Source of the DNA: Eubacteriales bacterium
GTDB taxonomy: Bacteria > Bacillota > Clostridia > Oscillospirales > Oscillospiraceae
DNA: 64,000 bases
Direction: 5' to 3'
Assembly: GCA_030533415.1 (NCBI GenBank)
Contig: JAUNJE010000010.1
Span: forward strand, 1 to 64,000
The notes under the pieces are model-generated. The model was not told the DNA's origin, searched no databases, and worked only from the letters and a program-made list of their open reading frames with translations. The translations under genes were made by a program, and so were the position numbers. Positions 13,209 to 46,307 of the stretch are shown here, piece after piece. Position 1 is the first letter of the stretch. Every line of letters starts with the position of its first letter.

Positions 13209-13377
13209 ATACTGATATTCCATTAAAAAGTTTCATTCGCTAGAATTGAACTTTTTAATAGGAAGATCATAATGAGACGGGTTTTCGTGATTTTCTATCT
13301 AAAAATCACGAAAACGGCAACGCCGTCAGGCGGTGCCTTCTTTATAAAAATAAAACATTTTTATAAAGAAACAGTAT
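13209..13377 (+). repeat. Palindromic intergenic repeat element, copy 1 (full)
   Basis: 169 bp. It starts ATACTG and ends CAGTAT (imperfect terminal inverted repeats about 22 bp long) and contains four hairpins in a row: a stem around the AAAAAGTT/AACTTTTT pair; TTTTCGTGATTTT with its complement; GGCA-CGCC paired with GGCG-TGCC; and TTCTTTATAAAAA with TTTTTATAAAGAA at the end. About 90% identical to the copy at 46138-46307 by eye. No ORF. It lies between a transporter gene and its permease. Confidence 0.85.
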
Positions 13378-13395
13378 GAAAGGAGGAATCCATGG

Positions 13396-15111
13396 ATGGC
13401 TACCCGCCAAGGTGCGGCTCTGGAACGGAAAAAGCTGCTGGCTGACCCGATTATGGTCACAACCATCGTGGTATTGATCGCGTTTCTGACCCTGTTTATT
13501 TTGTATCCCCTGGCAATTCTGCTGGTGGACAGCGTCTACGGTACGGAAACCGGACTGACAATGTCCATTTTTAAGCGGATTTTTCAAATGAAAACCTTTC
13601 GCACTGCCATTTCCAACACCCTGAAGGTCGGTCTGACGGTGGGCATTTTTTCCACCATTGTTGGATTGCTGTTTGCCTATGTGGAAGTGTATGTGAAGGT
13701 GCGCACCAAGTTTATGGGGGGACTGTTCCGGGTGGTTTCCATGCTGCCCGTTGTTTCGCCTCCCTTTGTGCTCTCCCTTTCCATGATTATGCTCTTCGGC
13801 AAGGCGGGAATCATCACCCGGTATCTGCTGAAGATTTATGATAACAGCGTCTATGGTTTCTGGGGAATCGTCATTGTGCAGACGCTGACGTTTTTCCCGG
13901 TGTGCTATATGATGCTGAAAGGATTGCTGAAAAACATCGACCCTTCCCTGGAGGAAGCCGCCCGGGATATGGGCGCCTCCCGCAGCAAGGTATTTACCAG
14001 TGTGACCCTGCCGCTGATCCTGCCGGGCCTGGGCAATGCGTTCTTGGTGACCTTCATTGAGTCCATCGCGGATTTCGCGAATCCCATGATCATCGGCGGT
14101 TCCTATGATACGCTGGCCACCACCATTTATCTGCAGATCACCGGCGCTTATGACAAGCAGGGCGCGGCGGCCATGGCTGTGGTGCTGCTGACCATTACCC
14201 TGGCTATGTATCTGGTGCAGAAATATGTGCTGGAAAAGAGGACTGCCGCGACCCTGACCGGCAAGGCCTCCCGGGGAAGGATGCTGATTGAGGACCGCAG
14301 CGTCACCGTTCCGCTGACGATCCTGTGCTCGCTGATCGCACTGTTTGTCATCATTATGTACATCTGTGTTCCCTTTGGCGCTTTGTTCAATACCTGGGGA
14401 TATGATTTCACATTGACCACCAAATGGTTTGTCCGGGTGTTTGAAAAGTATAAGGGCTTCAAGGCTTTTAAGGATTCGTTCCTATTGTCCCTGGCGGCGG
14501 CTCCGATTACGGCGCTGCTGAGTATGATCATCTCCTATCTGGTGGTCAAGAGAAAGTTCCGGGCAAAGGGCTTTATCGAATTTGTTTCCATGCTGGCCAT
14601 GGCGGTTCCCGGTACAGTTTTGGGCATCGGCTACATCCGCGGCTTTGTCAATGGCGTATTTGGCACCGGCTTCCTGGCGGGCATCTATGGAAGCGCCGCG
14701 ATCCTGATTATCGTGTTTGTGGTGCGCTCCTTGCCCACCGGAACCCGAAGCGGTATTTCCGCCCTGCGGCAGATCGACAAGAGCATCGAAGAGTCCGCCT
14801 ATGATATGGGAGCCAACAGCTTCAAGGTGTTTATGACGGTGACGCTGCCCCTGATCAAGGATTCCTTCCTGAGCGGCCTGGTGACGGCATTTGTCCGAAG
14901 CATTACCGCCATTTCCGCCATCATTCTGCTGGTGACACCGGAATTCCTGCTGATCACCGTGCAGATCAACGAATTCGCGGAAAAAGGCTCCTACGGCATC
15001 GCCTGTGCCTTTGCGACGATTCTGATCGTGATTACTTACGGTTCGGTGCTGCTTATGAATCTGTTCATCAAATTTTTCGGAACCAGCCGGAAACTAAAGG
15101 AGGCCGATTGA
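13396..15111 (+). CDS. ABC transporter permease, two fused membrane domains (Fe3+ type)
   Basis: 571 residues, about 12 transmembrane helices in two homologous halves. Each half ends in the cytoplasmic EAA loop that contacts the ATPase: EEAARDMGASRSKVF near residue 190 and EESAYDMGANSFKVF near residue 465. This fused layout is that of FbpB/SfuB-like ferric iron permeases. The ATG at 13396 follows AGGAGG (13381-13386) at 9 nt. The ATPase gene begins 1 nt after the stop. Confidence 0.93.
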   Translation: MATRQGAALERKKLLADPIMVTTIVVLIAFLTLFILYPLAILLVDSVYGTETGLTMSIFKRIFQMKTFRTAISNTLKVGLTVGIFSTIVGLLFAYVEVYVKVRTKFMGGLFRVVSMLPVVSPPFVLSLSMIMLFGKAGIITRYLLKIYDNSVYGFWGIVIVQTLTFFPVCYMMLKGLLKNIDPSLEEAARDMGASRSKVFTSVTLPLILPGLGNAFLVTFIESIADFANPMIIGGSYDTLATTIYLQITGAYDKQGAAAMAVVLLTITLAMYLVQKYVLEKRTAATLTGKASRGRMLIEDRSVTVPLTILCSLIALFVIIMYICVPFGALFNTWGYDFTLTTKWFVRVFEKYKGFKAFKDSFLLSLAAAPITALLSMIISYLVVKRKFRAKGFIEFVSMLAMAVPGTVLGIGYIRGFVNGVFGTGFLAGIYGSAAILIIVFVVRSLPTGTRSGISALRQIDKSIEESAYDMGANSFKVFMTVTLPLIKDSFLSGLVTAFVRSITAISAIILLVTPEFLLITVQINEFAEKGSYGIACAFATILIVITYGSVLLMNLFIKFFGTSRKLKEAD

Positions 15112-15112
15112 C

Positions 15113-16189
15113 ATGGCAAAAGAAAAGAAGGGCGTTCGCCTGGAACATATTTCGAAAATCTATCAGGATCCCAAGACCGGCAAGGATTTCTATGCGGTGA
15201 AGGATACCACTCTGGAAATTGAGCCTGGTTCCTTTGTGACCCTGCTTGGCCCCTCCGGCTGCGGAAAGACCACGACCCTTCGCATGATCGCGGGCTTTGA
15301 AAGCCCGGATGAAGGGGAGATTTACTTAGGCGGCGAGCCCATCAATGCGCTGACACCTAACAAGCGGGATACGGCCATGGTGTTCCAGAGCTATGCGCTG
15401 CTGCCCCATTATAACATTTTTGATAACGTCGCCTATGGTTTGAAGCTTCGCAAGCTGGACAAGGCAACCATCCGGGAAAAAGTCACCAAAATCCTGAAGC
15501 TTGTGGGCCTGGAGGGGATGGAGGAGCGCATGACCAACCAGCTTTCCGGTGGCCAGCAGCAGCGTGTGGCGCTGGCACGGGCGCTGGTCCTGGAGCCGGG
15601 TGTGCTGCTGTTTGACGAGCCGCTGTCCAACCTGGATGCCAAGCTGCGTGTCTCCATGCGGACGGAAATCCGCCGCATCCAACAGGAAGCGGGGATCACC
15701 GCCATCTATGTTACCCATGACCAGTCCGAGGCCATGGCGCTGTCCGACAAGATCATCATTATGGAGAAAGGCGTTGTGGCCCAGATTGGGTCCCCTCAGG
15801 AAATCTATTATCATCCGGCCAGCGAATTCGTAGCGGATTTCATTGGCGAAGCCAATTTCCTCCGGGGAAAACTGACCGCCAAGTCCGGCGGCAGCGGCAC
15901 GGTGACGGTGGAAGGTGTTCCGGTTCCCGTTGTAGGCGTTGAAGAACTGCCGGAGGGCAAGGAGTGCACCCTGGTGCTGCGTCCGGAATCCGCAGTTTTG
16001 GCAGACAAAGGCGTTTTGCCCTGTCGGGTCATTGTTTCCTGCTTCATGGGTTCTTACCAGAACTACCATGTAATGGTGGGGGATGCTCTGGTCAAGATCA
16101 CGGATTTTAACCCCAAGAACAAGAAAATCTATCAGGTGGGCGATACCGCCTATGTTGATTTTGAAAAAGAAAACGTTCACGTCCTGTAA
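15113..16189 (+). CDS. ABC transporter ATP-binding protein, Fe3+/spermidine type
   Basis: 358 residues. Walker A is GPSGCGKTT, the Q-loop lies in FQSYALLPH, the signature is LSGGQQQR, Walker B LLFDEPLSNLD, and the switch His is in YVTHDQSEAM. A C-terminal TOBE-like regulatory domain spans about residues 245-358. This is the FbpC/PotA branch that powers uptake. It is the last gene of the importer operon and is followed by a terminator. Confidence 0.94.
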   Translation: MAKEKKGVRLEHISKIYQDPKTGKDFYAVKDTTLEIEPGSFVTLLGPSGCGKTTTLRMIAGFESPDEGEIYLGGEPINALTPNKRDTAMVFQSYALLPHYNIFDNVAYGLKLRKLDKATIREKVTKILKLVGLEGMEERMTNQLSGGQQQRVALARALVLEPGVLLFDEPLSNLDAKLRVSMRTEIRRIQQEAGITAIYVTHDQSEAMALSDKIIIMEKGVVAQIGSPQEIYYHPASEFVADFIGEANFLRGKLTAKSGGSGTVTVEGVPVPVVGVEELPEGKECTLVLRPESAVLADKGVLPCRVIVSCFMGSYQNYHVMVGDALVKITDFNPKNKKIYQVGDTAYVDFEKENVHVL

Positions 16190-16197
16190 TGAAAAAT

Positions 16198-16225
16198 TTC
16201 CCCGCTGCCCAAAAGCAGCGGGGAA
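16198..16225. terminator. Bidirectional intrinsic terminator
   Basis: An 11-bp GC-rich stem (16198-16208 with 16215-16225) separates the importer operon from the convergent glycosyltransferase gene. Confidence 0.88.
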
Positions 16226-16229
16226 TTCC

Positions 16230-17177
16230 TTATTTTTCCTTATAATCCAAAACTTCCTTCGCGATATAAACCGGCCGGTCCTTGCTCTGCTCGAAGGTCC
16301 TTCCTACGTATTCTCCAATGATGCCGATGCAGAACAGCTGCATGGAGCCAAAGAAGAGAAGCAGCACAATGATGGTGGCATAGCCGGGGACGTCAATGCC
16401 TTTGATGAGCTTTTCCAGAATCACCCAGATCAGATAAAAAATTGCGGCGATGCCGGAAACGCCGCCCAGGACGGTGGCCAGGCGCAGGGGGGCGGTGGAA
16501 TAACCGATGATTCCCTCAATGGCGTACTCCGTCAGCTTCCAGAAGTTCCATTTTGTGGTACCGGCGGCCCGCTCGCAGGCCGTGTAGGGAATGAAGCAGG
16601 TGCTGTAGCCGACCCAGGCGAAAATTCCCTTGGAGAAGCGGTGGTATTCCGTCAGCTCCAGAATGCTGTCCCGGACACTTCTGCGGAAGGTGCGGAAATC
16701 GCTGGCGTCTGGCTGAAGGGTCACGTCCGAAAGCTTATTGATGATGGCATAGAAGCTTTTCTTGAAGAAGGACAGCACTTTGCCCTCACTGCGGCGGTCC
16801 TGGTAAGCGGCTATCACGTCATATTCCGGCTGCTCGTCCAGAATTTTGACCATATCCCGGACGATTTCCGGCCGCTGCTGCAAATCGGCGTCGATCAGGG
16901 AAATATAGTCTCCGCAGGCGTGCTGCAAGCCTGCGTAAAGCCCGGCCTCCTTGCCGAAGTTCCGGGAAAAGGAAACCACTTTTACCGGACATTTCTGGGC
17001 GGCATGGATTTTTCTCAGGTTGTGCAGCGTGGCGTCGCGGCTTCCATCGTCGATGAATACGATCTCATAATCATAGCCGCAGCCGTCAAAGGCGCCGATG
17101 ACGGCCTCTTGAAACGCGGCAACATTTTCCGCTTCATTGTAACAGGGAACCACTAGGGAGAGTTTCATAGCGTTCAT
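16230..17177 (-). CDS. Membrane glycosyltransferase family 2 (GtrB/CsbB-like)
   Basis: 315 residues. A GT-A domain (LVVPCYNEAENV, then IDDGSRDAT and the DADLQQRPE metal-binding region) is followed by two transmembrane helices (about residues 235-256 and 268-292). This is the arrangement of polyprenyl-phosphate glucosyl- or aminosugar transferases, which load a sugar onto undecaprenyl phosphate for wall or lipid decoration. ATG 17168 (MKLSLVV) is an equally good start; neither has a strong ribosome binding site. No flippase partner is encoded next to it. Confidence 0.9.
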   Translation of the reverse strand: MNAMKLSLVVPCYNEAENVAAFQEAVIGAFDGCGYDYEIVFIDDGSRDATLHNLRKIHAAQKCPVKVVSFSRNFGKEAGLYAGLQHACGDYISLIDADLQQRPEIVRDMVKILDEQPEYDVIAAYQDRRSEGKVLSFFKKSFYAIINKLSDVTLQPDASDFRTFRRSVRDSILELTEYHRFSKGIFAWVGYSTCFIPYTACERAAGTTKWNFWKLTEYAIEGIIGYSTAPLRLATVLGGVSGIAAIFYLIWVILEKLIKGIDVPGYATIIVLLLFFGSMQLFCIGIIGEYVGRTFEQSKDRPVYIAKEVLDYKEK

Positions 17178-17282
17178 CTCGCAATATCAAAATTTTCTTC
17201 ATTATATGAAAATATCCGTCCTTCGTCAAGTAATGCGGTTAAATTTTCTGCGCTTTTCCGCGGCAAACTTTTGCGATTTTAG

Positions 17283-17311
17283 TTGACATTCACCAAAGTA
17301 TATGTTAATTT
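17283..17311 (+). promoter_or_regulatory. Promoter of the valS T-box transcript
   Basis: TTGACA (17283-17288), a 17-nt spacer and TAATTT (17306-17311), just upstream of the T-box leader. Confidence 0.75.
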
Positions 17312-17319
17312 ATTGTAGT

Positions 17320-17541
17320 AAATGCCTTGATGGGGAGGTTTCGCCTCCAAACCCATGCAGAGAGTGCCCGGTTGGTGTGAGGGCATATGGGAGGATGCGG
17401 ATGGTCGCCCCGGAGCAGCTTTCCTGAAATCCGGTAGGGAAGGACGGGTCTGCCCGTTACAGCTTATGAGTGCCCGAAAGGGAATTCAGGTGGTACCGCG
17501 GAATTTTTTCGCCCTGAGAGTTATTCTCTCAGGGCGTTTTT
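17320..17541 (+). promoter_or_regulatory. T-box riboswitch (tRNA-Val sensing) before valS
   Basis: Leader with Stem I features (AGAGAGTG near 17358) and a specifier-loop context GATGGTCGC in which GTC (17404-17406) is a valine codon. The conserved T-box sequence AGGTGGTACCGCGG spans 17488-17501. A terminator follows (11-bp stem 17510-17520 with 17526-17536, then T run). Uncharged tRNA-Val should favour the antiterminator and allow valS expression. Confidence 0.93.
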
Positions 17542-17564
17542 CATTTGTATAAGGAGGAAAGAAA

Positions 17565-20207
17565 ATGGCAAGAGAATTACCAAAGGTCTATGAACCCCAG
17601 CAGGTGGAGTCCCGGATCTATGACATGTGGCAGAAGGGCGGCTACTTCCACGCAAAAAAGGACGAATCCAAAAAGCCCTTCACCATCGTCATGCCGCCCC
17701 CAAACGTCACCGGCCAGCTGCATATTGGCCATGCCATGGACGATACCTTGCAGGATACGCTGATCCGCTTTAAGCGCATGCAGGGCTATAACGCGCTGTA
17801 CCTGCCCGGCGTGGATCACGCGGGCATTGCCACCCAGATCAAGGTGGAAGAGGAGCTGCGGACAAAGGAAGGCTTGACCCGTTATGATTTGGGACGGGAA
17901 AAATTCCTGGAGCGGGTCTGGGACTGGAAGAACCAGTACGGCAGCCGCATTGTGGAACAGCAGAAAAAGCTGGGTGTTTCCTGCGACTGGGACCGGGCAA
18001 GGTTTACCATGGACGAGGGCTGCTCCAAGGCCGTTCGGGAGGTGTTCGTCTCCCTGTACGAAAAGGGGCTGATTTACAAAGGCAGCCGGATCATCAACTG
18101 GTGCCCCAACTGCGTCACCGCCCTGTCCGATGCCGAGGTGGAATATGTGGACAAGCCCGGCCATCTGTGGCACATCCGTTATCCTTTGGCCGACGGCACC
18201 GGGGAAGTGGTGGTGGCTACCACCCGCCCGGAGACCATGCTGGGAGATACCGGCGTCTGCGTCAACCCCAATGACGAGCGCTACAGGGATTTTGTGGGCA
18301 AGAAGGTCATTCTGCCTCTGGTGAACAAAGAGATTCCCATTGTGGCCGACGACTACGCCGAGATGGAGTTCGGTACCGGATGCGTCAAGATGACCCCCGC
18401 CCATGACCCCAACGACTTTGAGGTGGGCCTGCGCCATAATCTGGAAATTATCCGCGTGCTGGACGACAACGGCAAGGTCAACGAACTGGGCGGAAAATAT
18501 GAGGGCATGGACCGCTACGATGCCCGGAAAGCCATCGTGGCCGACCTGGAGGCCCAGGGTTATCTGGTGAAGGTGGAGGAGTACAGCCATAATGTGGGCA
18601 CCTGCTACCGCTGCCACAAGGATGTGGAGCCGATCATCTCCGCCCAGTGGTTTGTGAAGATGAAGCCCCTGGCAGAGGAAGCCATCCGGGTGGTGAAAGA
18701 CGGGGAAACGAAATTCGTCCCCGACCGTTTCAGCAAGACCTATCTCAACTGGATGGAGAATGTCCGGGACTGGTGCATTTCCCGTCAGCTGTGGTGGGGA
18801 CATCAGATTCCTGCCTGGACCTGTGCCGACTGCGGTCACATCACCGTGTCCCGGGAGGACGCCTGCAGGTGCGGGAAGTGCGGCAGCACCAATATTGAGC
18901 GGGACCCCGACGTGCTGGATACCTGGTTTTCTTCGGCCCTGTGGCCCTTTGAGACTCTTGGCTGGCCTGAAAAGACCGGGGACCTAAATTATTTCTATCC
19001 CACTGACGTGCTGGTCACCGGCTATGACATCATCTTCTTCTGGGTTGCCAGAATGATTTTTTCCGGCTGTGAGCACACAGGAAAGACGCCCTTCCACACC
19101 GTACTGATCCACGGCCTGGTCCGGGACAATCTGGGCCGTAAAATGAGCAAATCCCTGGGCAACGGCATTGACCCCCTGGAGATGATCGACAAGTACGGCT
19201 GTGACGCCCTGCGGATGAACATGGTCACCGGAAACTCTCCCGGAAACGACATGCGTTTCTATGTGGAACGGTGCGAGGCCATGCGCAACTTTGCCAATAA
19301 GCTGTGGAACGCCTCCCGGTACGTCCTGATGAACCTGGACGAGGACGCCAAAGGCGGACTGCCTGAGCTGGACAAGCTGGAAATTGCGGATAAATGGGTG
19401 CTGTCCAAGCTGAACACCCTGATCGCCGAGGTCACGGAGAATCTGGAAAAGTACGAGCTTGGCGTCGCCGTCCAGAAGGTCTATGACTTCGTCTGGGACA
19501 CCTACTGCGACTGGTATATTGAGCTGACCAAGGCCAGATTGTATTCCGAGGACGAAAGCCGTAAGCAGACCGCCATTTCCGTTCTGGTGTATGTGCTTGA
19601 CCAGACCCTGCGGCTGCTGCATCCGTTTATGCCTTTCATCACCGAGGAGATTTGGCAGAGCCTGCCCCACGAGGGCGAAGCCCTGATCGTCGCCAAATGG
19701 CCGGAATACCGGGAAGATCTGGCCTTCAAGGCCGAGGAAAGCCATATGGAGTCCGTTATGAACGCCATCCGTGCCATCCGCAACCGCCGTTCCGAGATGA
19801 ATGTACCCCCCAGCAAAAAGGCGGCCCTGTTCATCCTGACCTCCAAGCCCCAGGTGTTCCTGGAGGGCGAGGGCTTTATCCAGCGGCTGGCCTACGCCGA
19901 TTCGGTCGCCATGCTGGAAAAGGAGCCTGAGAACCTGGATGGTATGGTGACCTGCGCCACGGCGGATGCCAAGCTGTATATTCCCATGGGACAGCTGGTG
20001 GATGTGGCCAAGGAGCTGGAGCGCATTGCCAAGGAGCTGGAGAAGGCCCGGAAAAACCTTGCCGGGCTGGAAGCTAAGCTGGGCAATGAGAAGTTTGTCT
20101 CCCGTGCGCCCGAGGCGGTGGTCAACGCCGAACGGGAAAAGGCCCAGAAGGCAAGAGATTTGATTGCAAGCCTTGTGCAGAGCGAAGCGGCTATGAAGAA
20201 GCTGTAA
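17565..20207 (+). CDS. valS: Valyl-tRNA synthetase
   Basis: Charges tRNA-Val with valine. 880 residues, class I synthetase. The HIGH signature is in [11 protein letters not shown] and KMSKS in [10 protein letters not shown]. The editing (CP1) domain lies between ([14 protein letters not shown]). A zinc-ribbon-like Cys cluster (CADCG ... CRCGKCG) lies near residue 420. The C-terminus has an anticodon-binding domain and a coiled-coil tail from about residue 805 rich in Lys/Glu/Ala. Good AAGGAGG ribosome binding site. Single gene under T-box control. Confidence 0.98.
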
Positions 20208-20219
20208 AACAAAATACAC

Positions 20220-20250
20220 AAAACCCGCAAGTAAAATCCTTGCGGGTTTT
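20220..20250 (+). terminator. Intrinsic terminator of valS
   Basis: A 12-bp stem (20220-20231 with 20239-20250), with the final TTTT inside and after the stem. Confidence 0.88.
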
Positions 20251-20339
20251 GCTATTTATAAAAATCGGGTTTCTTTGATACCAAAAGCCGTGACAACTGG
20301 TTGCTGAAATGCTTGGATGGGGGTCGGTAAGCTTACCAG

Positions 20340-20954: not shown

Positions 20955-21245
20955 ATTTTTCCTCCTATTGATATGGCAGAAGTTTCATATTTATATTTTA
21001 CATCATTACCGATTGAAAATATAGGCCGCCCATATTAAGCTTTTCTTGAGACTTCCTTGAGATTTTCCTAAAATTTACGAAGCAGGAACAGCGTGCAGGA
21101 GAAGGTGTATTCCGACGGCAAATCCGTTAAGGGGCGGCTTGCGGCGGATAAACCGGAGAAGTGCTATGGCGGCTTTCCCGGCAAATTCCAATTATCCTTA
21201 CCGGCAGATGAATTGCCGGTTTTCTTTTTTTGTACCTGATTCCGA
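20955..21245. other. Gene-free stretch with coding-like remnant and orphan terminator
   Basis: No intact gene. Between about 21069 and 21235 the + strand has coding-like composition and one open frame (no start) that reads into a perfect terminator-type stem, ACCGGCA / TGCCGGT (about 21200-21220), followed by a long T run. It looks like the 3' end of a lost gene with its terminator left behind. Family unknown. Confidence 0.45.
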
Positions 21246-21274: not shown

Positions 21275-21305
21275 GAATACAGCAATTTTCTAAGGAGGAC
21301 TTTTT

Positions 21306-25267: not shown

Positions 25268-27866
<2,599 letters not shown>

Positions 27867-33940: not shown

Positions 33941-34030
33941 ATAGAAAATCACGAAAACGTGTCTCATTATGATCTTCTTATTAAAAGGTCCTATTCTTGC
34001 GAATGAAACTTTTTAATGGAATATCAGTAT
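33941..34030 (-). repeat. Palindromic intergenic repeat element, copy 3 (truncated, inverted)
   Basis: The 90-bp complement of the first half of the elements at 13209 and 46138. It keeps the terminal ATACTG end (CAGTAT at 34025-34030 on +) and the first hairpin, with partly compensated changes in its stem, and stops inside the second hairpin. It lies between ybeY and era. Confidence 0.78.
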
Positions 34031-34048
34031 AACACATAGGAGAAACTT

Positions 34049-37325: not shown

Positions 37326-37337
37326 TAGGAGAGAACC

Positions 37338-39716
37338 ATGTCTGAATTATATGAAAAATCCCTGCTGAAGCTGGAGCTTGACCAGGTTTTGCAGCTGCTT
37401 GCCGGGTGTGCCGGAAGCGAGGGCGGAAAGGAAGCCTGTATGGCTTTGCGGCCAAGCTCCGACCTGGAAGAGGTGGAACTGCTGCTGAATCAGACGACAG
37501 CCGCTTCCGACCTGTGCACCCGAAAGGGCAACCCGATTTTCGCGGATGTTACCGATGTGTCCGCGTCTTTGGAGCGGGCGGACCGGGGCGGCAGTCTGCA
37601 GCCTGCGGAGCTGCTGCGCATTGCGGGAATCCTCCGCTGCACCCGGAATATCAAGGGATATGTTGCCGAGGATGAGAAGCAGACCGTACTGGACGTGATG
37701 TTCCAGGCGCTTAATCCCAACAAATACTTAGAGGATAAAATCTTCGGCGCAATTCTTTCTGAGGAAGAAATTGCGGATAACGCTTCTCCGGCCCTTGCCG
37801 ATATCCGCCGCCATATGCGCATCCAATCCGGGAAAATCCGGGACAGCCTGCAGAAAGTGATTTCTTCCCCTGCCTACAGCAAATTCCTGCGGGAGCCGAT
37901 CATCACCATCCGGCAGGGACGCTATGTAGTACCCGTGAAAAGCGAGTGTAAAAATGACGTGCCCGGCCTGGTACACGATGTGTCCGCCACCGGCTCCACC
38001 TATTTTGTGGAGCCGATGTCCGCCGTCAATGCCAACAACGCCCTGCGGGAGTTGGAATTAAAGGAGAAGAAGGAAATCGAGCGGATTCTGGCGGAGCTGT
38101 CCAGCGAGGCTGCCGGCTACCGGGAATCCATTGACTTAAACTACCGGATGCTGGTGCAGCTGGATGTGATTTTTGCCAAGGCCAAGCTTGCTTACCGGAT
38201 GAACGCCTGGGCACCCATCATGAATGACCGGGGCAGGGTGGAGCTGCGCAAGGCACGGCACCCGCTGATCGATCCCAAGACCGTGGTGCCCATCTCCCTG
38301 CGCTTGGGAACGGATTTTGATTCCATGATTATTACCGGACCCAATACCGGCGGTAAGACGGTCACCCTGAAAACCATCGGCCTGCTGACCCTGATGGCGG
38401 AGTGCGGCCTGCATGTTCCTGCAGGAGACGGAAGCGTGCTGTCCACCTTCGATGCCATTCTGGCGGACATCGGGGATGAACAGTCCATCGCCCAGAGCCT
38501 GTCCACCTTCTCAAGCCACATGCGCACCATTGTGGATGTGGTGGCCCAGTGCGATGACCGCACGCTGGTGCTTTTTGACGAGCTGGGAGCCGGTACCGAC
38601 CCGGCAGAGGGCGCGGCCCTGGCCACCGCCATTATTGAATTTTGCCGAAAAATGGGCAGCCGGGTGGTGGCGACGACCCACTATGCGGAGTTGAAGCTCT
38701 ATGCCATGCGCACCAAGGGCGTGATCAACGCTTCCTGTGAGTTCGATGTGGAGACCCTGCGGCCCACCTATAAGCTGCTCATCGGCATCCCCGGCAAATC
38801 CAATGCCTTTGCCATTTCCCGGAAGCTGGGGCTTTCGGAGGACATTTTGAAGGAAGCCGACGACCTGGTGGATAAGTCCGATAAGGATTTTGAAGATGTC
38901 CTGTCCCAGCTGGAGCAGCAGCGCCAGCAAATGGAGGCTGCCCGCCAGGAAGCCGAGCGCCTGCGGCAGGAAACCGCCAAGATCAAGCAGCAGAGCGAGG
39001 AATACAACGATCAGCTCCGCAGGGAAAAGGAAAAGGCCATGGAATCCGCCCGGCGGGAAGCCCAGAACATCATTGAGGAGGCCCGTGCCGCCGCCAATAT
39101 TGCCTCCGAAGAGCTGAAAGCCCTGCGCAAGCAGCTTACGGAAAACGCCGACACCACCAATATCAACCAGCGTCAGGCCGAGCTTCGCCGCAGCCTGAAT
39201 GAGGCGGAGGACAAGCTTCGCAGCCAGCAGCCCCAAAAGGAACGGCCCCAGCCCAGCCGGGGCATTCTGGTAGGGGATACGGTGGAGCTGCTGAAGCTGG
39301 GCACCAAGGCCAGCGTCATTGCCATCAACAAAGACGGTACCTATCAGCTCCAGGCGGGCATTTTGAAAATGTCCGCAAAAGCCGACGAAATCTATTTGCT
39401 GGAGCAGGAAAATCCCTACAAGGAAAAGGGCGTTCGGCCCAAGCATTCCGGCAGGGAGATGAAGCTCAGCGCCATGCCCACGGAAGTGGATCTTCGTGGG
39501 ATGGATGCTGTGGAGGCGATCTGTGTCCTTGACCGCTACCTGGATGAGGCCATGCGCAGCAATTTGAGCCAGGTCCGCATTATTCATGGCAAGGGGACGG
39601 GAACGCTGCGCTCAGCCGTACAGCAGTCCCTAAAAAAGAATAAATACGTCAAAAAGTTCCGCCTTGGCCAGTATGGCGAGGGCGAGGACGGCGTTACCAT
39701 CGCGGAATTCGGCTGA
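37338..39716 (+). CDS. mutS2: MutS2 ATPase/endonuclease
   Basis: 792 residues. MutS-type core and clamp, with Walker A GPNTGGKTVTLKT, Walker B VLFDELGAGTDP and the ATTHYAELK switch. A long coiled coil follows (about residues 515-640, Gln/Glu/Arg-rich). The C-terminal Smr endonuclease domain starts at VDLRGMDAVEA and includes RIIHGKGTGTLR. MutS2 acts in control of recombination and, in Bacillus, in rescue of collided ribosomes. Good ribosome binding site GGAG. Confidence 0.97.
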   Translation: MSELYEKSLLKLELDQVLQLLAGCAGSEGGKEACMALRPSSDLEEVELLLNQTTAASDLCTRKGNPIFADVTDVSASLERADRGGSLQPAELLRIAGILRCTRNIKGYVAEDEKQTVLDVMFQALNPNKYLEDKIFGAILSEEEIADNASPALADIRRHMRIQSGKIRDSLQKVISSPAYSKFLREPIITIRQGRYVVPVKSECKNDVPGLVHDVSATGSTYFVEPMSAVNANNALRELELKEKKEIERILAELSSEAAGYRESIDLNYRMLVQLDVIFAKAKLAYRMNAWAPIMNDRGRVELRKARHPLIDPKTVVPISLRLGTDFDSMIITGPNTGGKTVTLKTIGLLTLMAECGLHVPAGDGSVLSTFDAILADIGDEQSIAQSLSTFSSHMRTIVDVVAQCDDRTLVLFDELGAGTDPAEGAALATAIIEFCRKMGSRVVATTHYAELKLYAMRTKGVINASCEFDVETLRPTYKLLIGIPGKSNAFAISRKLGLSEDILKEADDLVDKSDKDFEDVLSQLEQQRQQMEAARQEAERLRQETAKIKQQSEEYNDQLRREKEKAMESARREAQNIIEEARAAANIASEELKALRKQLTENADTTNINQRQAELRRSLNEAEDKLRSQQPQKERPQPSRGILVGDTVELLKLGTKASVIAINKDGTYQLQAGILKMSAKADEIYLLEQENPYKEKGVRPKHSGREMKLSAMPTEVDLRGMDAVEAICVLDRYLDEAMRSNLSQVRIIHGKGTGTLRSAVQQSLKKNKYVKKFRLGQYGEGEDGVTIAEFG

Positions 39717-39804
39717 TTTTTACAGAAGTTGGGGATTGGAAACGTTTTCAACAAGAAATGACGCAATTCGAGGCCGCTTCTTGTGAAAACAGGACGAAAA
39801 TTAG

Positions 39805-39832
39805 TTGACTTTTTCGGTAAAAATGCTATGAT
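39805..39832 (+). promoter_or_regulatory. Promoter of the HPr-like gene
   Basis: TTGACT (39805-39810), a 16-nt spacer and TATGAT (39827-39832). Confidence 0.7.
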
Positions 39833-39883
39833 ATAAGCAGACCGGTTGCACCCAGCCGGGTGTGACGAAAAGGAGTGTGTATT

Positions 39884-40144
39884 ATGTTCAATAAAGAAGT
39901 CGTCGTTCGCTGCGAATCCGGTCTGCATAATAAGCAGGCAACCTATTTTGTGCAGAAGGCCAACGAATTTGAGAGCAGCATTTGGCTGGAATCCGGCAAC
40001 CGCAAGATGAACGCCAAGAGCCTGCTGGGCATTATGTCGCTGGGGATCGTTACCGGTTCCACGGTTACGCTGAGTGCCGTCGGCTCTGATGCTGAGGCTG
40101 CTGTGAACGCACTGGATACTCTGCTCCAGCGGGACGTTTATTAA
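39884..40144 (+). CDS. HPr family protein with non-standard active site
   Basis: 86 residues from ATG 39884 (AGGAG 39871-39875). The HPr fold is clear, and both regulatory residues are at their usual numbers: His15 in SGLHNKQAT and Ser46 in MNAKSLLGIM. HPr normally reads H-A-R-P after Leu14; here it reads H-N-K-Q, so the Arg17 and Pro18 that aid phosphotransfer are missing. It may serve mainly as a Ser46-phosphorylated co-regulator (Crh-like) rather than as a sugar phosphocarrier. No PTS enzyme is encoded nearby. Confidence 0.9.
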   Translation: MFNKEVVVRCESGLHNKQATYFVQKANEFESSIWLESGNRKMNAKSLLGIMSLGIVTGSTVTLSAVGSDAEAAVNALDTLLQRDVY

Positions 40145-40156
40145 AACACTTTTGAA

Positions 40157-40200
40157 ACCGCCTCAATGCCCGAGAAAAAGCATTGAGGCGGTGCTATTTT
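40157..40200 (+). terminator. Intrinsic terminator of the HPr-like gene
   Basis: A 13-bp perfect stem (40157-40169 with 40180-40192) followed by GCTATTTT. The uvrC ribosome binding site lies immediately after it. Confidence 0.85.
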
Positions 40201-40210
40201 GAGGAATACC

Positions 40211-42037
40211 ATGACCTTTGATGAACTGAAGGAAAAAGCCCTGACTTTGCCCTATGCTCCCGGCGTGTATATCATGCGGGACAAAACGGATAAGGTCATC
40301 TATGTGGGCAAGGCGAAAAAGCTGAAAAACCGGGTGAGCCAGTATTTCCAGGACACCACGTCCCACAGCCCCAAGACCCGGATCATGGTGAGCAAGATCC
40401 ACCATTTTGATGTCATTGTGGCAGCGTCGGAATTTGAAGCGCTGGTGCTGGAATGCTCGCTGATCAAGCGGTATATGCCGAAATACAACATCCTGTTGAA
40501 GGATGATAAGGGCTATCCCTATCTGCGGCTGGATATGAAGGAGATCTATCCCACCATCACCCTGGTCAGCAAGCTGGCGGAGGATGGCGCGGACTACTAT
40601 GGTCCCTACGGCGGGCGCGCCGTGACCCACGATGTGATGGAGGCCATTCGGCTGACGCTGAAGCTTCCCGGCTGTCATAAGCAGTTTCCCCGGGATATCG
40701 GCAAGGAGCGCCCCTGCCTGAACTACCATATGAACCAGTGCGCCGGCTGGTGCCAGGCCAATAAAAGCTGTACGGAATACCGGGAGACCATGCTCCAGGC
40801 ACGGCAGCTTTTACAGGGAAACTATAAGGCGGTTGCGGAGCAGATCAGGCAGCAGATGCTGGCTGCGTCGGACAATCTGGAATTTGAACTGGCAGCCAAT
40901 CTGCGGGACCGGCTGGCGGCTGTGGAGAATCTGGGACAAAAGCAGCTGGTTACGGCGGGAACTTTGGCGGATACGGACGTGGTGGGCTACGGCGAAACCG
41001 AGGCAAAGGCCTGCTTTTCCGTGCTCCATTTCTCCGGCGGCAATTTGCTGGATAAAGACTACGAGGTGTTTTCCAGGCCGGATGACAAGGTGGAAGCCGT
41101 ATCCAGCCTGATGAAGCAGTTTTACCTCAGCCGCGGCCTTGCTCCGAAACGGGTTTTGCTGCCCTTTGCGATTGAGGACAGCGAGCTGTTTGCCCAGCTT
41201 CTGGAGCAGCAGTACGGACGGCGCCCAAAGCTTCATGTGCCCCAGCGGGGGGACAATGTGCGGCTGGTGGAACTGGCGTGCAAAAACGCCTTCGAAGAGG
41301 CGGAGCGTGTCACCGGCAAGGAAGAGCGTGTCAACGCCACATTGACCCTGCTTGGCAAAATGCTGGCGATCGCGCCGCCGGGGAGGATGGAGTCCTTTGA
41401 TATTTCCAATATTTCCGGGACGGACATTGTTGCCAGCATGGTGGTTTTTCAGGACGGCAAGCCCAGAAAAAGCGACTATAAGCGCTTTAAGCTGGAAGGA
41501 CTGACCAATCAGGATGACTATGCCTCCATGCACCAGGTGGTGAAACGCCGTTTTGCCCACTACAAGGCAGGGGACAAAGGCTTTGAGGAAGCGCCGGACC
41601 TGCTGCTCATTGATGGCGGCGTGAACCATGCCAAGGTGGCTGTGGCTGCCCTGGAGGAGCTGGAACTGCAATTCCCGGTATTCGGCATGGTGAAGGACGA
41701 CCGGCACCGTACCCGGGCGCTGGTGACTCCGGAAGGCCAGGAAATCCGAATCGACAATAACCAGGCGGTTTTTGCTTTGATCGGCAATATCCAGGAGGAA
41801 ACCCACCGCTTTGCCATTACCTATCACCGTCAGCTGCGCAGTAAACGGCTGCGGTATTCGGAGTTGGACGGAATCCCGGGCATCGGCCCGAAGCGTAAGC
41901 AGGAGTTATTGCGGCAGTTTAAATCCATTACGGCCATTGGCCAGGCCTCGCTGCCGGAGCTGGAGCGGCTGCTCCCCAAGGACGCTGCGGCGGCAGTATA
42001 CCATCATTTTCAAAATAAGAAAACAAAGGGTGAATGA
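40211..42037 (+). CDS. uvrC: Excinuclease ABC subunit C
   Basis: 608 residues; makes both incisions in nucleotide excision repair. N-terminal GIY-YIG nuclease (APGVYIMRDKTDKVIYVGKAK), Cys-rich region (CLNYHMNQCAGWC), UVR domain (about 200-235), UvrC RNase H-like nuclease (MESFDISNISGTDIVASM and LLLIDGGVNHAK) and C-terminal helix-hairpin-helix pair (LDGIPGIGPKRKQELL). ATG 40211 is preferred over TTG 40199 because GAGG is 6 nt upstream. Confidence 0.97.
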   Translation: MTFDELKEKALTLPYAPGVYIMRDKTDKVIYVGKAKKLKNRVSQYFQDTTSHSPKTRIMVSKIHHFDVIVAASEFEALVLECSLIKRYMPKYNILLKDDKGYPYLRLDMKEIYPTITLVSKLAEDGADYYGPYGGRAVTHDVMEAIRLTLKLPGCHKQFPRDIGKERPCLNYHMNQCAGWCQANKSCTEYRETMLQARQLLQGNYKAVAEQIRQQMLAASDNLEFELAANLRDRLAAVENLGQKQLVTAGTLADTDVVGYGETEAKACFSVLHFSGGNLLDKDYEVFSRPDDKVEAVSSLMKQFYLSRGLAPKRVLLPFAIEDSELFAQLLEQQYGRRPKLHVPQRGDNVRLVELACKNAFEEAERVTGKEERVNATLTLLGKMLAIAPPGRMESFDISNISGTDIVASMVVFQDGKPRKSDYKRFKLEGLTNQDDYASMHQVVKRRFAHYKAGDKGFEEAPDLLLIDGGVNHAKVAVAALEELELQFPVFGMVKDDRHRTRALVTPEGQEIRIDNNQAVFALIGNIQEETHRFAITYHRQLRSKRLRYSELDGIPGIGPKRKQELLRQFKSITAIGQASLPELERLLPKDAAAAVYHHFQNKKTKGE

Positions 42038-42891
42038 AAATGCTTGCGGAACCCACCAAAGAGGAGATTGAAAAATATCTTGATTTTGCCTACAAGCTTG
42101 CATTGGATCCGGCCAGATCTGGTTATCCTACCTATACGGACGGAATAAAAACCAGAGGGGATTTTGAGGCGGCCACATGGCGGCAGTTTTATGAAGACGG
42201 AAGGAAGATTCTGCTGTTTGAAAAAAATGGCCGGGTAGAGGGCTGGCTGCAATTTGACGTTTTCCCGGAGGCAAACCATCTTGAGTTGACCGGATTTAAT
42301 ATTGCGGACCATGCTGAGCAGGCCCTTGCGGAACTGGAAGCGTATTGCATAGCAAATTATCCGGGCTATGGATTGTATTTTGGATTTCCAAAGGACAATG
42401 TATTGGCGGTCCATTATCTGGCCACAAACGGCTGGACATGCATTGAGCATTCCTATAACGACGTTCTGCACCTGAAAAATTACCAGCCATTGGAGGAATG
42501 CGGAGATATCGTCCCTGTGACCCGGGAAAACTTTGGAGATTTCCAAGCCATGCACCGTCTTATCGAAGGGGAAATGTATTGGAATTCGGAACGGCTGTAT
42601 CAGGAACTGGACAGATGGAGCATTTGGCTGTACTATAGGGCTGGTGTTCCCGCTGCCGCGGTTTACTACACCAATGTGGAAACCATGGCGGAGATTTTCG
42701 GCGTGGATTTTGCTGGCGGCCATTTTGAAGAAGGCGCCTTTCGCGCGCTGGTTGTCAAATCGCTGAATGCCTGTAAGAAAAAGGATTTCCGGCATGTCAC
42801 CTTTTTTAACGATGAACAGACGCAGAAGGCGGCTCTTGCCTGCGGATTTGAATGCGTCGGTGAGTACGTTTGCTATTACAAAAAGAGATAA
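42034..42891 (+). CDS. GNAT-like acetyltransferase, unassigned
   Basis: 285 residues, cytoplasmic. The N-terminal half is mixed alpha/beta with aromatic residues. The C-terminal half looks GNAT-like (PAAAVYYTNVETMAEIFGVDFAGG, then a helix and LACGFECVGEYVCYYKK, the usual last strands), given as landmarks. A classical acetyl-CoA loop (Q/R-x-x-G-x-G/A) is not obvious, so activity is uncertain. Its start overlaps the uvrC stop by 4 nt, giving translational coupling. Confidence 0.65.
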   Translation: MKMLAEPTKEEIEKYLDFAYKLALDPARSGYPTYTDGIKTRGDFEAATWRQFYEDGRKILLFEKNGRVEGWLQFDVFPEANHLELTGFNIADHAEQALAELEAYCIANYPGYGLYFGFPKDNVLAVHYLATNGWTCIEHSYNDVLHLKNYQPLEECGDIVPVTRENFGDFQAMHRLIEGEMYWNSERLYQELDRWSIWLYYRAGVPAAAVYYTNVETMAEIFGVDFAGGHFEEGAFRALVVKSLNACKKKDFRHVTFFNDEQTQKAALACGFECVGEYVCYYKKR

Positions 42892-42903
42892 AAGGGGTTC
42901 ATT

Positions 42904-43446
42904 ATGCGCGTAATTACAGGAAAGGCCAGAGGCGTTTCATTAAAGACGCCTGACGGTATGCTGACCCGGCCCACCACCGACCGGGTGAAGGAGGCGCTCT
43001 TCAGCATCATCCATTTTGAGATACCCGGCGCCAATGTGCTGGACCTGTTTGGCGGTACCGGGCAGTTGGGAATCGAGGCTCTGAGCCGGGGGGCGAAAAG
43101 CGCGGTTTTTGTGGATGCCCGGGAAGAAGCCTGTAAACTGATCCGGGAGAACCTGAAACGCACCAGGCTGGAGCAGGGGGCAAAGGTCGTCCGCAGCGAT
43201 TACCTGGACTATCTGGGCCGCTGCCGGGAACAATATAATATCATATTCCTTGACCCGCCCTATGCGGAAGTTTTTTTGGAAAATGCGTTAAAACGCATAA
43301 CCGAAATTGACATTTTACAATCCGATGGTATAATAGTTACAGAGCGTCCTTTGGGAAAGGAGCTGCCCTGGGAAATGGAGGGCTATTCCCGCTCCCGGGA
43401 CTATAAGTATGGAAAAACGCTGCTTACGGTCTACCGTAAGGCGTAA
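42904..43446 (+). CDS. rsmD: 16S rRNA (guanine966-N2)-methyltransferase RsmD
   Basis: 180 residues, class I methyltransferase. The RsmD signature start RVITGKARG, TRPTTDRVKEALFSI, SAM-binding LDLFGGTGQLGIEAL and catalytic LDPPY are all present. Methylates G966 (E. coli numbering) of 16S rRNA. Followed by coaD, the usual order in Firmicutes. Confidence 0.97.
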   Translation: MRVITGKARGVSLKTPDGMLTRPTTDRVKEALFSIIHFEIPGANVLDLFGGTGQLGIEALSRGAKSAVFVDAREEACKLIRENLKRTRLEQGAKVVRSDYLDYLGRCREQYNIIFLDPPYAEVFLENALKRITEIDILQSDGIIVTERPLGKELPWEMEGYSRSRDYKYGKTLLTVYRKA

Positions 43447-43461
43447 AAACGTGGGATCATT

Positions 43462-43968
43462 ATGAAAATTGCGATTTATCCGGGCAGCTTTGACCCGGTG
43501 ACCAGCGGGCATCTGAATATTATCCAGCGGGCAGCCAATATCTTTGACCGGCTGATCGTCTGCGTCATGGTAAACGCGGGCAAAAATCCGATGTTCACCC
43601 TGGAGGAACGGGTAGATTTGATCCGCCGGGTCACCCGGGATTTACCCAACGTAGAGGTGGACGGCTCCAATGAGCTGCTGGCGGATTATGCCAAACGCCG
43701 GGGCAGCTGTGTTATTGTCAAGGGCCTGCGGGCAGGCTCGGATTTTGAAAATGAGTTTCAGATGGCCCTGATCAACCACAAGATCAACCCCGAACTGGAT
43801 ACCATGTTCCTGACTGCGGAAAGCCAGTATATGTACCTAAGCTCCAGCACCGTCAAGGAGTTGGGAAGCTACGGCGTAGACCTTTCGGACTTTTTACCCG
43901 GTGAAATTATTCCAGCCTTTCGGGAGAGAATAGGGAAAAAGAATACTACCAATCAAGGAGGAAACTGA
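43462..43968 (+). CDS. coaD: Phosphopantetheine adenylyltransferase
   Basis: 168 residues; the fourth step of coenzyme A synthesis. Nucleotidylyltransferase motif YPGSFDPVTSGH, then VKGLRAGSDFENEFQMA and the late YMYLSSSTVKEL (S-S-S-x-V-K/R) motif. Confidence 0.97.
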   Translation: MKIAIYPGSFDPVTSGHLNIIQRAANIFDRLIVCVMVNAGKNPMFTLEERVDLIRRVTRDLPNVEVDGSNELLADYAKRRGSCVIVKGLRAGSDFENEFQMALINHKINPELDTMFLTAESQYMYLSSSTVKELGSYGVDLSDFLPGEIIPAFRERIGKKNTTNQGGN

Positions 43969-43970
43969 AC

Positions 43971-44474
43971 ATGAGCGATCGTAATACCGAAGATATCATT
44001 GGCGCATTGTATGATATGGTGCAGGATGCCCGTTCCATGCCCCTGGCAGCGGATAAGTGCATTTTGGAGCGGGACAAGGTGCTGGATATGCTGGATGAGA
44101 TCATTGCCCAGCTCCCCGGGGAATTGAAGCAGTCCCGCACCATCGTAGAGTCCCGCAATGAACTGATCAGCCAGGCGCGCCGGGAGGCTGAGGGGATTCT
44201 CAGGGATGCCCAGGAAAAGTCCAAGCAGATGGTCACCCGGGAGGCGATTTACGCCGAGGCCAAGAAGCGCAGTGAGGACCTGGTGGGCCAGACCCAGAAC
44301 CGGATCAACCAGCTGCGCAAGGCCGGAAACGACTATATGGATGAATCTCTGCGTCAGACCGAGGAAGCGATTTCCAAGGCCCTGGCAGAGGTGCGCGATA
44401 CCCGCATGAAGTTCCGCTCTGTTACCGAAGCCCAGGAGCAGCGTAAAACCCCCAACGTGGACGTGGAAGTATAA
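43971..44474 (+). CDS. Coiled-coil protein encoded after coaD
   Basis: 167 residues, almost entirely helical, with a long heptad-like stretch from about residue 55 to 150 rich in Glu, Arg, Gln and Ala (SQARREAEGILRDAQEKSKQ and on). It resembles ATP-synthase subunit b/H-like stalks or DivIVA-like coiled coils but has no membrane anchor. It lies 2 nt after coaD with its own AGGAGG, so it belongs to the rsmD-coaD operon. No function can be given. Confidence 0.75.
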   Translation: MSDRNTEDIIGALYDMVQDARSMPLAADKCILERDKVLDMLDEIIAQLPGELKQSRTIVESRNELISQARREAEGILRDAQEKSKQMVTREAIYAEAKKRSEDLVGQTQNRINQLRKAGNDYMDESLRQTEEAISKALAEVRDTRMKFRSVTEAQEQRKTPNVDVEV

Positions 44475-44486
44475 ACACATATACCC

Positions 44487-44520
44487 AACCGGGACAGGCC
44501 ATACCTGCCCCGGTTTTTTT
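44487..44520 (+). terminator. Intrinsic terminator of the uvrC-rsmD-coaD region
   Basis: A 12-position stem (44487-44498 with 44504-44515) with one A-C mismatch is followed by seven T. Confidence 0.88.
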
Positions 44521-44658
44521 GGTGCGGCAAGACAGAAATTGCGGAGCCCTAAGCGAGTGTACCATTCCCGCATAGGGCGCCACTACGCGAAGCAGGCAGA
44601 TTATCTGCGTTACCCAATCAAAATTTTTCACTTTTTTCTATTTTTTCTAAGAAAGAGC

Positions 44659-44689
44659 TTGACTTTCCACTTGGTGGAAGGTTTATACT
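44659..44689 (+). promoter_or_regulatory. MerR-type promoter with 19-nt spacer and operator dyad
   Basis: TTGACT (44659-44664) and TATACT (44684-44689) are 19 nt apart, the over-long spacing typical of promoters that MerR-family activators untwist. The spacer holds the dyad TTCCAC-TTG-GTGGAA (44665-44679), centred as a MerR operator should be. The next gene encodes a MerR regulator, so autoregulation is very likely. Confidence 0.9.
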
Positions 44690-44716
44690 AACCGCAAGAA
44701 AGGCGGGGGAGAAGCG

Positions 44717-45367
44717 GTGAAAATCAACGAAGTGGAAGCCCTGGTGGGGATCACGAAGAAAAATATCCGATTCTACGAGGAGCAGGGGTTGCTGACTCCC
44801 CGGCGGAACGCGGAGAACGGCTACCGGGATTATGGGGAAGCAGAGGTGGAAACCCTGCGCCAGATCAAGCTATTGCGCAAGCTGGGCGTGCCCATCGAGG
44901 AGATCCGGCAAATGCTCAGCGGCACCCATACCCTTGGCGACGGAATGCGGCGGCACCTGATTACGCTGGAACGGGAAAAGCGAAATCTGGAACAGTCTAT
45001 GCTGCTGTGTCAGCAGATGCAGAATCAGGAGATCCCCGTGTCGGCGCTGGATGCCGAAGAAATCCTCGGGCGGATGGAGGAAATGGAAAAGGGCGGCACC
45101 TCCTTCCAGAATAAGCAGTCTCAGGATGTCCGGGTGCGCTATGTGGCGCCTGTCATCGTGACGGTGGTGATGGTTGCCCTGATGGCCGGTGTCTGCGCCC
45201 TGCTTTGGTGGACGTACCGCACATCGCCGGAGGACGTGCCGCCCGTTGGCTTCTTTTGGTTTATCGTAGGTATCTGCGCCCTGGTGGGCGCTGGGGTGAT
45301 CTTGGCATTGACCCAGTGCATTCGGGAAATCGGGAAAGGAGAAATTGACGATGCGAAACACTACTAA
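44717..45367 (+). CDS. Membrane-anchored MerR family regulator
   Basis: 216 residues, GTG start. N-terminal MerR winged helix (MKINEVEALVGITKKNIRFY), wing with the NGYRDYGEAE block, and a dimerisation coiled coil (about 75-125). A two-helix membrane module follows (about 143-165 and 175-198), then a cytoplasmic tail REIGKGEIDDAKHY. MerR proteins normally bind effectors in the C-terminal part, so a membrane-borne signal is inferred. The last 17 nt overlap the next gene. Controlled by its own 19-nt-spacer promoter. Confidence 0.9.
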   Translation: MKINEVEALVGITKKNIRFYEEQGLLTPRRNAENGYRDYGEAEVETLRQIKLLRKLGVPIEEIRQMLSGTHTLGDGMRRHLITLEREKRNLEQSMLLCQQMQNQEIPVSALDAEEILGRMEEMEKGGTSFQNKQSQDVRVRYVAPVIVTVVMVALMAGVCALLWWTYRTSPEDVPPVGFFWFIVGICALVGAGVILALTQCIREIGKGEIDDAKHY

Positions 45368-45602
45368 GAAAAAATGGGGCACCATCCTCAGTGCAGCGGT
45401 GATCATCGCGGTTCTTGGCATTTATCTGGCGGTGCTGTTGCTTCCCATATTGGGGGAAACCCTGGGGGATACCGTTCTGCTGGCACTTTTGATCCTGTAC
45501 AGCCTGATTTTGATTGCCGTGATTGTTGGCGTTTTGGCGGCACTGAGACAGCGGCTGCGGGAAATTGAAGGCGGTGAGGAAGATGATGCGAAAAAATATT
45601 GA
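45351..45602 (+). CDS. Small two-helix membrane protein, paralogous to the MerR membrane module (1)
   Basis: 83 residues: a basic N-terminus (MRNTTKKK), two transmembrane helices (about 12-34 and 41-64) and the tail REIEGGEEDDAKKY, nearly the same as the tail of the preceding MerR protein. It starts inside that gene (17-nt overlap); its ribosome binding site AAAGGAG lies in the coding sequence of the MerR tail. It may pair with the MerR module in the membrane. No known family is recognised. Confidence 0.8.
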   Translation: MRNTTKKKWGTILSAAVIIAVLGIYLAVLLLPILGETLGDTVLLALLILYSLILIAVIVGVLAALRQRLREIEGGEEDDAKKY

Positions 45603-45846
45603 TAAGCAGGCCCAGCGCCGCAGGGACGCCATTCAAAGCGCCATTGTATCCACGTTGATGCTGATTGTGCCCGCTGCCGTGATGCTGCTTCTGCGGTGGT
45701 TCTGCCGGGCAGAGGGTATCGTGGGCGCGGTGCTGGTTATTTTTTCTGTGCTGGATTTGGGGATGGTCATCCCCATCTGGATATTATTAAAAAATCGACT
45801 GAAAGAAATTGAAGGAGGAGAAGAAGATGCTGCTGCTCAATATTGA
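45586..45846 (+). CDS. Small two-helix membrane protein, paralogous to the MerR membrane module (2)
   Basis: 86 residues: a basic N-terminus (KQAQRRRDAIQ), two transmembrane helices (about 20-38 and 45-68) and the tail KEIEGGEEDAAAQY. Third consecutive protein with this tail. The start is either ATG of a tandem ATGATG (45583 or 45586) behind GTGAGG within the preceding gene. It overlaps upstream by 17 or 20 nt and downstream by 20 nt. Confidence 0.8.
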   Translation: MRKNIDKQAQRRRDAIQSAIVSTLMLIVPAAVMLLLRWFCRAEGIVGAVLVIFSVLDLGMVIPIWILLKNRLKEIEGGEEDAAAQY

Positions 45847-46138
45847 TCATGTTCCCGGACGGGAAATCGAGGCCCTTGGCTTGGTGAAAGGAACCGTGGT
45901 GCAGTCCAAAAACTTTGGAAAGGACTTCATGGCGGGCATGAAAACCCTGGTGGGCGGTGAGATCATCGGCTACACCGAGATGCTGGTGGAAGCCCGTCAG
46001 ATTGCCACCAAGCGGATGGTGGACGAGGCCGCCGCCATGGGTGCCGATGCCATTGTGAACATCCGCTTTGGCTCATCCGCCGTCATGCAGGGTGCCGCCG
46101 AGGTCATCGCCTACGGCACCGCAGTAAAGCTGAAATAA
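45827..46138 (+). CDS. YbjQ/UPF0145 family protein
   Basis: 103 residues, soluble. The YbjQ/UPF0145 family (often called a heavy-metal-binding domain) is recognised by LLNIDHVPGREIEALGLVKG, the GGEIIGYTEMLVEARQIA block and ADAIVNIRFGSS, given as landmarks. YbjQ-like proteins form pentamers; their role is not established. Start 45827 is preceded by GGAGGAG, which lies in the tail codons of the previous gene. Last gene of the MerR operon. Confidence 0.88.
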   Translation: MLLLNIDHVPGREIEALGLVKGTVVQSKNFGKDFMAGMKTLVGGEIIGYTEMLVEARQIATKRMVDEAAAMGADAIVNIRFGSSAVMQGAAEVIAYGTAVKLK

Positions 46139-46307
46139 TACGGATATTCCATTAAAAAGTTTCATTCGTCAGAATGGAACTTTTTCATAGGAAGATCAGT
46201 ATGAGACGGGTTTTCGTGATCTTCTATCTTGAAAATCACGAAAACGGTAACGCCGCCAGGCGGTGCCTTCTTTATAAAAATGAAACATTTTTATAAAGAA
46301 ACAGTAT
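46138..46307 (+). repeat. Palindromic intergenic repeat element, copy 2 (full)
   Basis: 170 bp, same order as copy 1 at 13209-13377: imperfect ATACTG-type start (ATACGG here), four successive hairpins, CAGTAT end. It begins at the last base of the UPF0145 stop codon and is followed by a GC-rich terminator. Confidence 0.85.

Follow-up and report, generated by a model that had tools for sequence, protein, structure and literature searches.

Copies of the element in the window

Three related hairpin-rich sequences in the analysed window, i.e., the whole stretch of 64,000 nucleotides from a contig of an Eubacteriales gut bacterium (JAUNJE010000010.1), raise the question whether they are copies of a MITE carried by an unseen transposase or of a structured RNA repeat, the two possibilities named in the original prediction. 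Their positions, borders and parts are as follows.

13210..13376, + strand: copy 1, full element, TACTG...CAGTA (earlier read as 13209-13377)
13207..13209, + strand: TGA target-site duplication to the left of copy 1 (six orthologous empty sites)
13377..13379, + strand: TGA target-site duplication to the right of copy 1 (empty-site alignment)
13213..13269, + strand: hairpin 1 of copy 1, with a conserved A.G mismatch, a bulged A and a T.G pair; outer pairs taken from the fold of the family
13267..13280, + strand: linker of copy 1 with ATGAGACG inside, near-invariant and unpaired
13281..13315, + strand: hairpin 2 of copy 1 (fold and family structure)
13316..13336, + strand: hairpin 3 of copy 1, a short terminator-like stem rich in G+C
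13337..13370, + strand: hairpin 4 of copy 1 (fold and family structure)
46139..46306, + strand: copy 2, full element
46136..46138, + strand: TAA target-site duplication to the left of copy 2, doubling as the stop codon of ORF 45809-46138
46307..46309, + strand: TAA target-site duplication to the right of copy 2
33941..34029, - strand: copy 3, truncated; it retains the left end, hairpin 1, the linker and, of hairpin 2, the 5' arm, and lacks the right part
34030..34032, - strand: TNA triplet adjoining the left end that copy 3 has kept, TTA when read along the element; the left-end pattern matches at this place too

The element is non-coding and, in its full copies, about 167 bp long. Re-reading of the sequence and fold scores confirmed both full copies, in which the four hairpins follow one another in the same order: they are 92.4% identical over 170 positions and fold much more stably than shuffled sequences (z-scores of -9.8 and -10.8), none of 200 shuffles equalling either copy. 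The inverted half copy, predicted at 33941-34030, is real as well (92% identity to copy 1 over 90 bp). The imperfect terminal inverted repeats of about 22 bp are present, although weak (15 of 22 positions): their exact part comprises only TACTG/CAGTA, and grows to ATACTG/CAGTAT once the shared flanking bases are included. The claim that the first stem of copy 3 is kept despite base changes did not hold, as the altered pairs became C.A, T.G, A.C and C.A, which is decay and not compensation. For the family, covariation nevertheless gives strong support to a conserved structure (see below).

An Rfam search of the window returned no family matching the element copies. Its sole match was a T-box leader (RF00230, 110.7 bits) at 17318-17519, upstream of an 880-aa ORF (17565-20207).

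Copy number, deletion forms and distribution

A BLAST search of the own genome identified at least 41 distinct sites, at least 21 of them spanning query positions 1-170, a lower bound based on 40 of 127 scored candidates; with window copy 3 added, the genome contains at least 42 copies or remnants. The left end (12 letters, at most one mismatch) occurs there 83 times, compared with a single occurrence of the reversed pattern. In the genus, 17 of 61 genomes match, own included, with relatives at 70-85% identity. Further copies thus exist both in the genome and in its relatives, and the family alignment with four hairpins, together with the structure statistics, contradicts a likeness limited to one simple hairpin.

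Many of the additional left-end matches are inner-deletion forms of down to about 23 bp, in which both ends are kept (L063, L066, L067, L096 and L097; longer forms are L064, L090, L079 and L061). The flanking triplets of L066, L067 and L096 are unequal. We considered 5'-truncation as a sign of retroposition and dropped it: TACTG is still present in L027 and L057, which are inner deletions, while the others are ordinary truncations. Conversely, four own copies (L023, L024, L028 and L029) contain, after hairpin 2 and before hairpin 3, about 40 extra bases that form two hairpins; other inserts occur in L217, as well as in L034 and L226, which come from different genomes. In L011, the last hairpin is palindromically extended into the element end. 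Short perfect palindromes of the form TACTGATTCTT...AAGAATCAGTA or similar, built from the right end and hairpin 4, were observed at L050, L076 and L085. The own genome also contains a second hairpin repeat with the core GTCATCCTGAGCGAGCGG...AAGGATC and ends resembling AATGCGAATCAAGAGTTGAA, which adjoins element copies or sits inside them (L060, L072 and L058).

A pattern scan of GTDB genomes matched 96 stretches. The 80 listed ones belong, where a taxon is named, to MAGs of gut Clostridia/Oscillospiraceae and to one Verrucomicrobiales MAG, whose match (L145) we regard as a chance one. A covariance model, R1, built on 33 copies and 55 pairs, gave matches in 12 of 200 genomes and 9 of 106 genera of the family, own included, in a search with filters that lose weak matches. 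Reading of the loci indicates that the members look real in 10 of these 12 genomes, some being truncated; those in G157 and G224, which alone represent one genus, are unconfirmed candidates. In distant members, the TAC.. left end, hairpin 1, ATGAGACG, hairpins 2-4 and the AGTA end are still present, with the stem letters replaced; hairpin 1 is often joined by an added small hairpin. Flanking triplets are equal on both sides in nine of the ten distant members read (L257, L258, L262-L266, L269 and L270, but not L260). The presence of about 16 near-identical copies in a single genome (G062) suggests a recent burst. No match to the element was found in phages and plasmids. Searches of viral contigs matched 1, 12 and 15 stretches, all rejected as chance matches except L281 and L282, which are remnant-like.

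Insertion sites

The element can be described as TACTG...CAGTA inside a 3-bp TNA duplication. TNA is present on both sides of 65 of the 68 unique two-ended copies; T and A were part of the score by which the ends were found, and N was not. In 58 of these 65 copies, the middle base agrees between the two sides, while about 24 would be expected from base counts (own genome 21/24, relatives 7/9, GTDB 30/32). Among 79 copies with equal triplets, the target is TTA in 58%, TCA in 27%, and TAA and TGA in 8% each; the base after the triplet is T in only 1%, and the base following it is A in 66%.

Comparison with empty sites supports the insertion of copy 1, to which this test was applied. All six orthologous loci (86-93% protein identity) align across the junction minus the element and one TGA; L254 (45% identity) and L255 (40%) were excluded. 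In the empty site of L249, the spacer between the terminator and AAAGGAGG is, by eye, 20 nt long, the same as in the own genome.

An ORF caller of our own places 65 of the 66 sites between genes (39 tandem, 18 convergent and 8 divergent), the sole site within an ORF being L169. Of 75 flanking gene 3' ends, 22 have a stop codon that coincides exactly with the duplicated triplet, as at copy 2; this is more frequent among right-hand (17/34) than among left-hand 3' ends (5/41). Possibly, this bias arises because the preferred TYA reads as TRA backwards. Insertions on stop codons would survive, the stop being re-created by the duplicated triplet. Such landing shows a harmless route into dense genomes for a mobile element.

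Fold and covariation

In the set of 33 copies, 98.0% of the cells are paired, compared with 86.8% in shuffled controls and 38.8-50.7% with slid partners. Two-sided changes occur in 30 pairs (3-7 with slid partners) and 203 cells (3-12 with slid partners); a further measure, that of additional pair types, is not decisive, as 39 of 500 shuffles reached the observed level. Parsimony on a tree of 53 copies (54 minus L020) yields 80 two-sided changes, compared with 0-1 in slid controls, and 40 of the 80 are transversions. The one-sided changes, counted with the constant U.G pair left out, comprise 22 to G.T, 24 to A.C and 24 to others. In 17 control tRNAs of the same loci, which were picked by a program favouring paired stems, we counted 345 Watson-Crick, 29 G.U and 0 A.C pairs. 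Since G.T and A.C arise about equally in the element, as opposed to 29 vs. 0 in tRNAs, the hairpins are suggested to be preserved at the level of DNA rather than as a strand-specific RNA. Covariation alone is no proof of a functional RNA, and the count of G.T vs. A.C offers a simple check.

The distribution of changes over the tree points in addition to the fate of single copies. Of the 70 one-sided changes, 63 are located at tips, whereas the 7 others (1 G.T, 3 A.C and 3 of other kinds) fall on internal branches, together with 41 two-sided changes. We infer from this that the fold is kept in the active lineage and that inserted copies then decay neutrally.

Certain features of the element do not change. 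The ATGAGACG linker stays near-invariant and unpaired across copies, and the A.G mismatch and bulged A of hairpin 1 and the A.G mismatch of hairpin 3 are kept, by column, in 49-52 of 53 copies. Hairpin 1 is capped by a loop of the form cG-N(1-2)-A-g in 34 of the 53 copies and hairpin 3 in 38, and the base that precedes the loop A is A in 14 and C or T in 15 copies in the former, and A in 3 and C or T in 35 in the latter. Loops of the d(cGNNAg) and d(GCGAAGC) types are unusually stable in DNA. The stability of d(GNA) triloops closed by C-G is described in a passage of PMC5815330. As the base before A is not restricted to purines, the predicted loops appear to suit stable DNA loops better than RNA GNRA loops, although shared descent limits the weight of this comparison. 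The invariance of linker and mismatches would be compatible with an RNA as well.

Could covariation of this kind arise without selection? If a polymerase switching templates copied one arm of a palindrome onto the other, the arms would be corrected to each other, and passages of two reports (PMC8604942, PMC7202029) describe such homogenisation of short inverted repeats. Transversions in half of the two-sided changes and few intermediates on internal branches agree with this explanation, as do the extended hairpin of L011 and the perfect palindromes of the right end (L050, L076 and L085). We nevertheless consider palindrome correction alone unlikely: the T.G pair, the two A.G mismatches and the bulged A, which it should erase, persist in 49-53 of 53 copies, the linker is near-invariant, and none of the four loops is found as an inverted pair in the 53 copies, while spacer inversion is one reported outcome of template switching.

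That a structured RNA, either a mobile or dispersed small RNA or a structure of mRNA ends, is what is selected, with the DNA copies being its by-product, appears quite improbable to us. The covariation is RNA-like and accompanied by an invariant unpaired linker, hairpin 3 resembles a terminator in both full copies, and the fold of the + strand is on average more stable by 3.6 kcal/mol than that of the - strand. G.U pairs in the MFE folds are also slightly more common on the + strand (92/3268 vs. 65/3255; in distant members 9/341 vs. 3/334), although in the close set much of this count comes from one conserved U.G pair (49 of 53 copies). Against this explanation stand the one-sided changes (22 G.T vs. 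24 A.C), which do not support the predicted structured RNA repeat as a strand-specific RNA, as well as the frequency of transversions and the lack of a matching Rfam family; the promoter scan found one, weak promoter-like site in copy 1 and none in copy 2.

Search for a mobilising enzyme

The own genome has no match to PF01609 or PF13586. Among 20 carrier genomes, PF01609 was found in 8, PF00665 in 6 and PF01797 in 13, and PF13586 in 3 of 22; PF13359 was found in none of 20, in a weak search whose control was positive in only 1 of 14 genomes. The ends TNA-TACTG...CAGTA-TNA are absent at all transposase loci checked (sets of 11, 10, 22 and 3). The five Pfam families therefore revealed no partner transposase in the 20-22 carrier genomes, which are drafts and MAGs and as such lose repeats. 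At L237 (1100-2795), a DDE_Tnp_1 gene lies in a long inverted repeat with TTA on both sides; as its ends are unlike those of the element, it was rejected as the mover.

The left end did not lead to an autonomous copy either, with each place judged on its first 190-260 bases. Forty further places in the own genome are copies, remnants or chance matches, as are 20 partial matches in the genus, and none of 40 places out of 47 in three other genomes is an autonomous copy, the other 7 lying at contig ends.

Short, divergent Y1 transposase-like ORFs (L336-L357), of about 145-260 aa where whole, were observed in 13 of 20 carrier genomes. To our knowledge, a 3-bp duplication is not expected of Y1/RAYT transposition. 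Movement of the element as single-stranded hairpin DNA by a RAYT-type Y1 transposase, in the manner of REP sequences, is thus very improbable in the face of the observed duplication, the absence of Y1 matches in the own genome and in the copy-rich G061 and G062, and the 22 Y1 loci beside which the R1 scan found no copy (one chance match, E=2), even though such ORFs occur in most of the carriers and a passage of PMC8266576 names fixed mismatches in palindromes as a feature of REP recognition.

Proposed mode of transposition

By its copy number, ends, duplication and empty sites, the element is a MITE of a real, new and structurally unusual family. We found no description of this family in open-access literature, an absence that is weak evidence. 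The many copies, the TNA duplication and the empty sites thus support the MITE of the original prediction; a transposase or coding element with these ends was not found in the searches described above.

A 3-bp staggered cut is typical of DDE transposases. The element is probably a non-autonomous MITE of 160-210 bp, moved in trans by a DDE-type enzyme, with its fold kept as DNA palindromes. The 5-bp terminal repeat is short for a DDE element and counts against this reading, as do the fruitless searches for an autonomous element or transposase with these ends and the better fold and slight G.U excess of the + strand. The enzyme acting in trans would insert the element through a 3-bp staggered cut at TNA, preferably at TYA followed by a non-T base and then by A, and insertions would survive between genes, often precisely on a TAA or TGA stop. 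It would recognise folded or palindromic DNA, and the active lineage would keep its hairpins as near-perfect palindromes, the linker and a few mismatches remaining unchanged. Once inserted, copies would decay neutrally, often losing inner hairpins and retaining both ends.

More speculatively, and with considerable doubt, the element may represent a new mobile class, in which an enzyme recognises folded hairpins, fixed mismatches and the ATGAGACG linker and inserts the element with TNA duplication. Were recognition by shape, the stem letters would be free to turn over completely between genera. Such a mover would link DDE-like insertion with the hairpin recognition of single-strand transposases. 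MITEs are commonly regarded as passive insertion-sequence remnants, while here the whole inner fold persists across genera although its sequence is exchanged, and the pattern of changes speaks for the shape of DNA, and not RNA, as what is preserved.

Comparison with known systems

The 3-bp TNA target duplication is shared with the IS1031 group of the IS5 family, as far as a passage of PMC12016507 describes it; the ISLrh end given there begins with GAACCTG and that of our element with TACTG. Among the loci checked, there was no IS5/IS1031-type transposase with TACTG ends.

Prokaryotic MITEs, as presented in passages of PMC10969869, are likewise short, non-coding, folded and intergenic, with direct repeats and many truncated copies, and their terminal repeats measure 4-30 bp. 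The features that set our element apart from that general picture are the row of four hairpins, the fixed mismatches, the linker and the replacement of stems between genera with the fold kept; in addition, no related IS was found.

In their modular hairpins, optional modules, terminal repeats, target-site duplication and intergenic location, the BOX elements of Streptococcus pneumoniae, as described in passages of PMC3049150, resemble our element. The extra modules here are, however, inner hairpin pairs, and the sequence relation was compared through Rfam only. Those passages contain no counterpart to the DNA-level covariation test used here.

REP/REPIN sequences with TnpA-REP, in the part of PMC8266576 devoted to them, differ from our element, which has a 3-bp duplication, defined ends and no adjoining Y1 gene. 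What the two have in common are palindromes whose mismatches are conserved, and an unpaired motif that is conserved as well.
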